Source: a virus. From it: a stretch of 64,000 nt of DNA. The stretch covers positions 1-64,000 of the IMG/VR virus record IMGVR_UViG_3300032294_002710; one strand, given 5' to 3'. The position numbers were made by a program, and so were the translations under genes. Below the pieces are notes generated by a model. It was not told where the DNA came from. It saw only the letters and a program-made list of their open reading frames with translations, and did not search any database. Positions 51,117 through 60,582 of this stretch are shown piece after piece (position 1 is the stretch's first letter; every line of letters starts with the position of its first letter).

Positions 51117-51512
51117 ATGATAAATAAATACGAGAAGTTTTTAGAATCTAAAAAAGATAAATTTCCTAATATCCAGACAAAAAAATTAGATGATTTTAGT
51201 ATTTTAATAGGTAAAGATGCTGTATCAAATGATTTTTTGACAACTAATATGGCGAATGATGATGACTTGTGGTTTCATGCAGCTGGTGTTCCGGGAAGTC
51301 ATATTGTTATAAAGGTAAGTGATAAGTTACCTATGGAAAAACATATTGAAGAAGTCGCAAAGTTGGCGGCTAAAAACTCGAAAGCACCAAAAGGTGTTAA
51401 AGTTAAGGTAGTCTATTGTAAAGCTAAGTTTGTTAAGAAAAATTCAGATATGAAACCTGGTCAAGTTAGTGTAGATTATAAAAACGCTCAAGAAATAGTT
51501 GTAGAAAATTAA
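51117..51512 (+). CDS. Stand-alone NFACT-R (RqcH/NEMF-type) domain protein with targeting-like N-terminus
   Basis: 131 residues. After MINKYEKFLESKKDKF comes a complete NFACT-R domain: SILIGKDAVSNDFLTTNMANDDDLWFHAAGVPGSHIVIKV, with the hallmark D-x-W-F-H and GSH motifs, then a helix EVAKLAAKNSKAPKGVKV and a final strand. In RqcH/NEMF proteins this domain sits beside NFACT-N and the coiled coil that bind stalled 60S/50S-tRNA complexes and promote alanine tailing. Here it is alone, as in some small bacterial proteins. The function is presumably in ribosome or RNA quality control, and the N-terminal FLE signature suggests it could be packaged (inference). Confidence 0.8.
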   Translation: MINKYEKFLESKKDKFPNIQTKKLDDFSILIGKDAVSNDFLTTNMANDDDLWFHAAGVPGSHIVIKVSDKLPMEKHIEEVAKLAAKNSKAPKGVKVKVVYCKAKFVKKNSDMKPGQVSVDYKNAQEIVVEN

Positions 51513-59047: not shown

Positions 59048-59067
59048 TATATAATATTGTATATTTG
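59036..59067 (+). promoter_or_regulatory. Bacteroidota-type promoter of the release-factor gene
   Basis: TTTG at 59036-59039, 20 bases, TATATTTG at 59060-59067: the same boxes and the same spacing as for the tmRNA gene. A phage-type AATATATAA (59046-59054) overlaps it, as it does upstream of the tmRNA. The leader to the ATG is about 90 bases. Confidence 0.7.
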
Positions 59068-59105
59068 TACTATGTTTAAAATTTGACTACATAATTATTA
59101 GCGTC

Positions 59106-59127
59106 TGTGAGTAAAAATCTACTCACA
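59106..59127 (+). promoter_or_regulatory. Leader hairpin upstream of the release-factor gene
   Basis: TGTGAGT (59106-59112) pairs with ACTCACA (59121-59127), 8-base loop. It is not followed by a clean T run, so it may be a regulatory leader hairpin instead of a terminator. Confidence 0.45.
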
Positions 59128-59163
59128 AACAATTTTATTGTCTAAAAAATAAAAATAATAATT

Positions 59164-59841
59164 ATGGAACAAATCATTATAGAAATAAGAGCCGCTGAAG
59201 GTGGACAAGATTCAAAACTACTTGTTGAAGATTTAAGAGATATCTATCTCAAAACTGCTAGAGTTAATAACTTTGATTATAAAGTTACTAATCGTGATGG
59301 ATTTACATCAATTTGACTGACTGGTCAGGGAGTTAAATCACTTTTTAAAAACGAAAGTGGTCCTCATCGTTGGTTAAGAATTCCACCAACTGAGAAGAGA
59401 GGTCGAACACAAACTTCAATTATCACTGTTGCACTAACCGATCCTAATGATAAATTAGATTTCAGGTTTAATCGAAATGAGGTTATAAAACAATATACTC
59501 GTAGTAGCGGAAAAGGTGGACAGAATGTTAATCGTAGATCTACCTGTGTTCAATTAACCCATGTACCAACTGGTATTCAAGTTAAATGTCAGGATCAAAG
59601 AGATCAAAGTAAAAATGAGGAATTAGCTTGGATTCGTATTGAAGAGAAACTTAGAATAATACATGATGATTCTCAAAGTAAGACTATTTATCAAAATCGT
59701 TTTGATCAAGTTGGTACTGGTTCAAGATCGGATAAAAAAAGATCATATAGGATCAAAGAGAATTTGGTAGTTGATCATGAGACTGGTAAAACCTGCACAT
59801 TTACTGACTTCTTAAAGGGAAGAATTGATTTATTGTCCTAA
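59164..59841 (+). CDS. Peptide chain release factor lacking domain 1, interrupted by an in-frame UGA
   Basis: From ATG 59164 one frame gives MEQIIIEIRAAEGGQDSKLLVEDL..., the start of release-factor domain 2. TGA occurs at codon 51 (59314-59316). The same frame then continues LTGQGVKSLFKNESGPHRW, RIPPTEKRGRTQTS, SSGKGGQNVNRRST and so on to TAA. GGQ is residues 118-120 and the P-x-T tripeptide (RF1-type, UAA/UAG reading) is 74-76. Total 225 residues including the UGA position, with no room for N-terminal domain 1. Against RF1/RF2 the UGA replaces one strand residue (Lys of IAKISG), so nothing else is missing. Neither a +1 nor a -1 shift bypasses it. Readthrough, editing or a pseudogene are the options. 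Sequence conservation on both sides favours function. Confidence 0.85.
59311..59338 (+). other. Hairpin containing the in-frame UGA
   Basis: AUUUGACU (59311-59318) can pair with AGUUAAAU (59331-59338) in eight pairs (one G-U), placing the UGA codon inside the 5' arm. GA-UC adds two inner pairs around CUGG. Alternatively CUGA (59317-59320) pairs with UCAG (59325-59328) right behind the UGA. The UGA is followed by C, the leakiest context. Confidence 0.45.
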
Positions 59842-60582
59842 TATTAATTTAAACTCCTCTTCATTTTTAAAACTTTTTTTGGTATTATTTTTCCTTTTGG
59901 TTATACAAAGGTTATCAAGTGATGATATTTCTTCTACTTGATAACCTTTTTTAAATCCTTCAAAGATAGAAATCTTGTGGTCTATTGTTGGATATCTTTC
60001 ATCGTTATAGTTAAGATTGAAGTTTATTTTTATATCTTCTCCGTCATAATAATCAAGTCCGTTCCATTCTTCTATTAGTTTCTTCTTATTTCTTTTGGTT
60101 AGATTGTCAATTAGTTTTCTGTATCTGATGTATTCACTCTTTTCGTCTTCAGATATAAAAATATTATTAATTTGAAAGTAATTATTTACAGACTTTGATA
60201 TTTTATCTTTAATTTCTGGATTATCCTCATAGAGTTTTAAAATAGAGTTTCTTATTTTTTCTCTAACTTCTGGTTTTTTTGCGGGATTTTTACCTCCAAT
60301 TTTTGAATCAGAGTATCTCTTTTTCGACTCATCACTTCTTACTTTACCTTTACAAGATAGACCGATTTTATCTTTATGTTCTTTAGATAATTTTTTTCCT
60401 TTGTGTGACTCAGATAGATTTTTCTTATGATCATCAGAAAAAATTTGTCCTTTTTTTACTTCTGATTGCTTTTTGTAGCCACATTTTCTACAAGAGGAGT
60501 TTTTATCATTTGCTATATTTAAAGAGTCCTTTGACTTATAAGTTATCTCGACAAAACATAATGGACAATTTCTTTTATACAT
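59830..60582 (-). CDS. HNH homing endonuclease with NUMOD3-type repeats
   Basis: 250 residues. An N-terminal zinc finger (CPLCFVEI...CRKCGYKK) is followed by NUMOD3-like DNA-binding repeats (FSDDHKKNLSESHKGKKLSKEHKDKIG, KGKVRSDESKKRYSDSKIG). The C-terminal HNH domain is YPTIDHKISIFEGF...EISSLDNLCITKRKNNTKK with its His and Asn residues. It converges on the release-factor gene and overlaps its last 12 bases, a typical placement for a free-standing homing endonuclease beside a conserved target gene. Confidence 0.85.
   Translation of the reverse strand: MYKRNCPLCFVEITYKSKDSLNIANDKNSSCRKCGYKKQSEVKKGQIFSDDHKKNLSESHKGKKLSKEHKDKIGLSCKGKVRSDESKKRYSDSKIGGKNPAKKPEVREKIRNSILKLYEDNPEIKDKISKSVNNYFQINNIFISEDEKSEYIRYRKLIDNLTKRNKKKLIEEWNGLDYYDGEDIKINFNLNYNDERYPTIDHKISIFEGFKKGYQVEEISSLDNLCITKRKNNTKKSFKNEEEFKLILGQ

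Follow-up and report, generated by a model that had tools for sequence, protein, structure and literature searches.

A phage RF1-like release-factor gene with a conserved in-frame UGA points to readthrough as a gauge of translation termination

In this work we have examined a phage release-factor gene which is interrupted by an in-frame UGA codon. The stretch of DNA that was analysed, here called the window, comprises bases 1-64000 of the 134,852-base virus record IMGVR_UViG_3300032294_002710, and the structural genes of this phage (Gp23 capsid, terminase, sheath and portal) are T4-like. The gene lies at 59164..59841 on the plus strand and has 226 codons, counting the in-frame UGA and the terminal TAA; the premature stop is codon 51 (TGA at 59314..59316, plus strand). 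We propose that programmed readthrough of this UGA probably gates synthesis of the factor by termination capacity. A first-pass annotation of the window had already suggested a sensor of this kind, and the suggestion is now supported by the conservation of the stop and by purifying selection across it. Two points go beyond that annotation: some relatives carry instead a genuine +1 shift of the prfB type, at a nearby or nearly identical site, and, judged from alignments of the family, selection keeps the stop itself and not an amino acid.

The gene is predicted to encode an RF1-like class-I release factor made of domains 2-4 without domain 1. When the stop is read as a residue, the protein matches the Pfam families PCRF (5e-17) and RF-1 (1e-25), and the best factor in NCBIfam is prfA, far above prfB; its 174.9 bits remain below the curated cut-off of 423.25 because domain 1 is missing, the matches starting at RF1 residue 105-113. 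RF1 is also the top match among solved structures, and an AlphaFold model built from family sequences (mean predicted local distance difference test score, pLDDT, 88) has a template modelling (TM) score of 0.92 to ribosome-bound RF1, with the fold of domains 2-4. A real release-factor gene on both sides of the TGA, as had been claimed, is thus found by all these comparisons. The PxT-type decoding tripeptide PPT (59383..59391, plus strand, residues 74-76) and the GGQ motif of peptidyl-tRNA hydrolysis (59515..59523, plus strand, residues 118-120) stand where they had been placed, and alignment to Thermus thermophilus RF1 shows that Leu-71 and Gln-83 replace the usual RF1 Gln and His. The UGA, followed by C at the +4 position, falls inside a beta strand of domain 2 (residues 47-54). 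If it terminates translation, the upstream segment (59164..59316, plus strand) gives a 50-residue product that has neither PxT nor GGQ, and since codon 51 lies upstream of both motifs this product cannot work.

How could the two halves be joined? Past the UGA both other frames are closed, the +1 frame by an immediate TGA and the -1 frame by a TAA nine codons further along, so no one shift can join the halves, in agreement with the earlier reading of the sequence. The codon before the stop is ATT (ATT TGA), not CTT, and the remainder of the gene stays in frame 0. Restart of translation inside the gene was rejected: there is no in-frame ATG, GTG or TTG from the stop to PxT in the window, and as the first start-like codon is the TTG at codon 201, a restart cannot yield the active part. 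A suppressor tRNA, one of the routes suggested previously, found no support, since no tRNA with a UCA anticodon was detected in 15 records of clade C (the window's and 14 related ones), several of them incomplete and two of them nearly whole huge-phage genomes. As there is neither such a tRNA nor any sign of RNA editing, the latter judged from sequence data only, readthrough by a near-cognate tRNA remains.

The stop is kept among relatives. In two independent IMG/VR contigs (loci L002 and L003) the encoded protein is 77% identical and codon 51 is again TGA, and an in-frame stop occupies the window's column in 18 aligned family members; the alignment of homologues at codon 51, proposed earlier as a check, therefore speaks for the stop, and the TGA is real and not a sequencing artefact. 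The homologues in LR756502, LR745206, LR756501 and LR756504 have TGA at the window's codon, at a second nearby codon, or at both. These four genomes, the largest that Al-Shayeb et al. reported for phages, come from phages with Bacteroidetes as predicted hosts (PMC7162821). Lak phages of the same Mahaphage clade, such as Prevotella phage Lak-B5 (L026), encode a full-length RF2-type factor without a premature stop.

Further members of the family were collected by scans with the family signature EIRAAEGG and with the window's alignment. The resulting counts are lower bounds, comprising at least 146 distinct full-length proteins with each locus read mechanically, and the family is larger than counted. 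Among the matches listed, 138 of 146 distinct full-length proteins have a premature stop near the N-terminus and the remaining eight are stop-free; members without the EIRAAEGG signature are under-sampled, which could inflate this recoded fraction. Thinning at 70% identity gave the same picture (80/86 recoded). In 85 of the 146 listed the frame continues past the TGA, with one TGA in 74, two in 9, TGA and TAG in one, and TGA followed by a CTT-TAG shift in another (L198), so that UGA readthrough would be combined with a UAG +1 shift in the same gene. The other 53 of the 146 listed have a prfB-like CTT-stop, after which coding carries on in the +1 frame. All 54 shift sites of the matches listed have CTT directly before the stop, which is TGA at 39, TAG at 12 and TAA at 3, and among the frameshift members no clear link was seen between the identity of the premature stop and the decoding residues. 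On a maximum-likelihood tree the frameshift members group apart from the in-frame ones, eight changes being counted over the whole tree; both the place of the stop and the way in which it is bypassed have altered several times. The window's clade (22 members) has frameshift members at its base, namely L008, with the shift at another position, and L051, with the shift within 1-2 codons of the window's site.

The family is not confined to phages, for scanning of cellular genomes recovered members from Myxococcota, for example Nannocystis, and from a few others. The Nannocystis loci (L155, L151, L154, L157 and L158) and other Myxococcota loci within L147-L168 are chromosomal members with a CTT-TGA or CTT-TAG +1 frameshift, which automatic annotation would tend to label as pseudogenes. 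A clade B gene with an in-frame TGA in a Rhodospirillales metagenome-assembled genome (L149) adjoins chromosomal genes for carbamoyl-phosphate synthase and prolyl oligopeptidase. A distant member (L207:4001-4648) has CTC TGA with a continuing frame and sits on a long branch among the frameshift members.

The pattern of substitution shows coding constraint before and after the stop. Between the window and L002 the ratio of nonsynonymous to synonymous substitution rates (dN/dS) is 0.09 upstream of the stop and about 0.15 in the downstream segment (59317..59841, plus strand), with synonymous sites near saturation; in unsaturated pairs the downstream value is 0.04-0.18. Upstream and downstream alike the ratio is low. 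With a dN/dS well below 1, the downstream half shows no sign of decay. In clade B the premature stop is TGA in 64/64 rows and never TGG, in a column which otherwise holds almost only L, F or Y and which Trp would fit. The window's column is variable in relatives (E, R, L, K or T), and from this the identity of the inserted residue seems unimportant there. The base after the stop is also biased. In the two clades that are mainly in-frame, U at +4 was found at 0/97 recoded stops, against 52/181 and 24/61 of the ordinary TGA stops nearby, and A at +4 at 55/65 recoded stops in clade B, against 54/181 ordinary TGA stops; p-values for such contrasts overstate their significance, because related sequences are not independent. 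In Escherichia coli UGA-A is prone to misreading by tRNA-Trp and U at +4 lowers readthrough (PMC5289835). A stimulatory hairpin at the UGA, to which the first-pass annotation had alluded, is not supported, the fold being no better than shuffled sequences (z score -0.27 in the window and -0.23 in L002, with about -0.3 also in L020); L019 alone gave a modest value (z -2.4).

We suggest the following course of events. When UGA termination is efficient, the ribosome would stop at codon 51 and release the inactive 50-residue peptide. When termination capacity is short, with few free release factors for the stops that are being read, as during heavy late phage translation, a near-cognate tRNA, most likely tRNA-Trp(CCA), would read the codon-51 UGA as sense, readthrough would rise and the full factor would be made; the inserted amino acid is probably Trp, and its identity, like the rate of readthrough, is inferred. 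The premature stop would then act as a termination-capacity gauge placed in the factor's own gene, a readthrough counterpart of the prfB frameshift. If the factor acts on UGA, an autoregulatory loop is predicted as well.

The region upstream of the gene may hold a second device. An element TATATTTG (59060..59067, plus strand) resembles the Bacteroidota -7 promoter element. It lies just 5' of a mini open reading frame (mini-ORF; ATG TTT AAA ATT TGA, 59072..59086, plus strand), which is followed in frame by CTA CAT AAT TAT TAG. Downstream of it a leader fold (59090..59166, plus strand) pairs 59090-59100 with 59156-59166, including the start codon of the release-factor gene, and encloses a hairpin (59106-59113/59120-59127); its dG is -19.9 with a z score of -5.45, and the pairing probability of the AUG is 1.0. 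The mini-ORF ending in UGA, its subsequent codons and the start-codon helix are kept in L002 and in L019 (LR756502), the helix of L002 having a shifted pairing and weaker support (z -1 to -2.4). Most other clade C members have no UGA-ended mini-ORF beside a start-codon helix. A role of the leader element as a general promoter was discarded, as the 17-base element occurs once in the window's genome; 37 stretches were found in viral contigs, and only those in the contigs of L002 and L003 precede release-factor genes. A ribosome stalled at the mini-ORF UGA, or reading through it, would open the start-codon helix, and the mini-ORF may therefore be a second termination gauge, a weaker inference drawn from three genomes.

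Several observations weigh against programmed readthrough as the gate of this gene, or at least against its autoregulatory form. The PxT motif predicts recognition of UAA and UAG, not of UGA, and the factor may consequently leave readthrough at its own UGA unreduced. In several relatives two readthrough events are required, from which little product would be expected without help, and L108 has TAG at the window's codon, UAG being less readily read through. Among the 15 clade C records, 7/8 of those that need two bypass events carry their own tRNA-Trp(CCA), compared with 1/7 of those that need one (p 0.01), which speaks for readthrough; this association is only a lead, as the records are partly fragmentary and share ancestry, and the window's own record is without a tRNA-Trp. 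The leader device is present in three genomes only (the window, L002 and L019). Finally, both readthrough and the full-length product are predicted from sequence comparison.

The first of these points leads to the alternative that survives best. Should UGA lie outside the factor's specificity, a shortage of host RF2 would be what the circuit senses: an ordinary UAA/UAG factor would be regulated by readthrough without any autoregulation, its UGA responding to exhaustion of host RF2 as a late-infection switch. We regard this as possible, if rather unlikely. The PxT motif and the RF1-like scores agree with it, but the premature stops of the frameshift members include UAG (12/54) and UAA (3/54), stops not expected in a pure RF2 sensor, and in the window's subclade the Gln and His that flank PxT in RF1 have given way to other residues, so that its specificity may differ. 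The use of UGA, UAG and UAA as premature stops and the replaced Gln and His would allow a broader or shifted recognition. It is tempting, and for the present speculative, to view the family as widespread, short RF1-like factors of phages with broadened stop recognition, of UGA in addition to UAG and UAA, which use premature stops as sensors of termination capacity through readthrough or frameshifting, with the leader mini-ORF as a second sensor in the window's lineage. If this were true, both initiation and elongation of the window's factor would answer to UGA termination.

The remaining alternatives explain the UGA without regulation. These phages or their hosts might read UGA as sense, globally or at a stage of infection, and the gene might merely contain such a codon. 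Alternative-code phages with release factors and suppressor tRNAs are known, and several huge-phage relatives carry CTA (amber) tRNAs; stop usage nevertheless argues strongly the other way. In the 134,852-base record 17/149 ORFs of at least 70 amino acids end in TGA, none of which can be extended by more than 21 codons, and TGA ends 181/601 ORFs around clade B genes and 61/432 around clade C genes. The earlier statement that UGA is not globally reassigned is therefore confirmed, global reassignment being largely refuted by this usage. With no UCA tRNA in the 15 clade C records and with +1 frameshift relatives (TGA, TAG, TAA) that keep a stop and not a codon meaning, we consider reassignment in any form very improbable. 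A decayed gene or an error of sequencing or assembly, which a lone in-frame stop would normally suggest, is hardly credible given that independent assemblies and 18 aligned members share the position of the stop, and given the low downstream dN/dS; moreover, each of 20 clade C records contains exactly one RF-1-domain gene, which leaves no room for a second, intact copy in the records examined. Decoding of the UGA as selenocysteine can be dismissed as next to impossible, since in-frame coding does follow the UGA but the region holds no Rfam selenocysteine element, the column is E, R, L or K in relatives and not Cys, and there is UAG at this place in one relative and a frameshift in others.

In connection with tRNAs, we also considered a broken pair in the 4-bp anticodon stem of phage tRNA-Trp as the feature of a UGA reader. 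It was present in 4/4 cases in the first three records and in 5/12 in the enlarged set and was set aside as suggestive only; such a pair resembles UGA-reading tRNA-Trp variants (PMC13092985). CTA-anticodon (amber) tRNAs, called as tRNA-Pyl, occur in L265 (LR756501), L372, L384 and L423-L424, and L435 has a TTA one; UAG serves as a stop around the release-factor genes of the relatives that carry these tRNAs. Near the end of the window's record, 28 tRNA genes form two clusters (L007:4862-15796, positions 122862-133796 of the record), and the record may be cut off near them. Two other genes of the window deserve mention. A probable NUMOD3 homing-type nuclease gene (59830-60582, minus strand) is convergent with the release-factor gene and overlaps its 3' end, and a stand-alone protein with an NFACT-R domain, as found in ribosome quality control factors, is encoded at 51117-51512, directly after the capsid gene.

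The textbook circuit in which RF2 regulates its own synthesis by means of a premature UGA always relies on a +1 frameshift. The family described here resembles prfB in that an early premature stop, nearly always UGA in prfB, gates a factor by termination efficiency, and its frameshift members share the prfB cassette of CTT-stop, often with a Shine-Dalgarno-like run. Unlike in prfB, the stop of the window lies in domain 2 of an RF1-type factor without domain 1 and is bypassed in frame. UAG was never found in 8,164 prfB cassettes (PMC12421855), whereas the frameshift members of this family do use it. PrfH (RFH), which is linked to rtcB, is likewise a class-I factor without domain 1, but the window's factor reaches only 70.5 bits with the PrfH model against a cut-off of 166.65 and has kept PxT; no recognisable RtcB gene was seen among the flanking genes of the window, and the consulted passages of PMC1586002 mention no recoding for prfH. 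Alternative-code phages are also large, many of them infect Bacteroidota, and they have their own tRNAs and release factor; in the phages studied here, by contrast, UGA is not reassigned and only the release-factor gene contains a recoded stop.

In their 2016 review, Atkins and colleagues noted that in-frame readthrough had once been proposed for RF2 and was absent from the sequenced bacterial release-factor genes, and that an RF1/UAG counterpart was unknown too (PMC5009743). The present family gives dozens of natural in-frame examples and places readthrough and frameshift forms of one gene on one tree, together with forms that combine both modes of bypass and with UAG in a frameshift cassette. 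With these, one can directly test how recoding mechanisms evolve and which stops the factors recognise; the family also suggests that large phages keep watch on translation termination and take control of it. Judged from the open-access literature, the sole known parallel for the readthrough design is found in giant viruses of amoebae, the class-I release-factor gene of Mimivirus and Megavirus requiring readthrough plus a frameshift (PMC3521657). Like the window's gene it is a virus-encoded release factor which needs readthrough of a stop, and L198 also combines readthrough with a shift; the giant-virus factor is of eukaryote/archaeal type, however, and belongs to an unrelated protein family in viruses of amoeba hosts.
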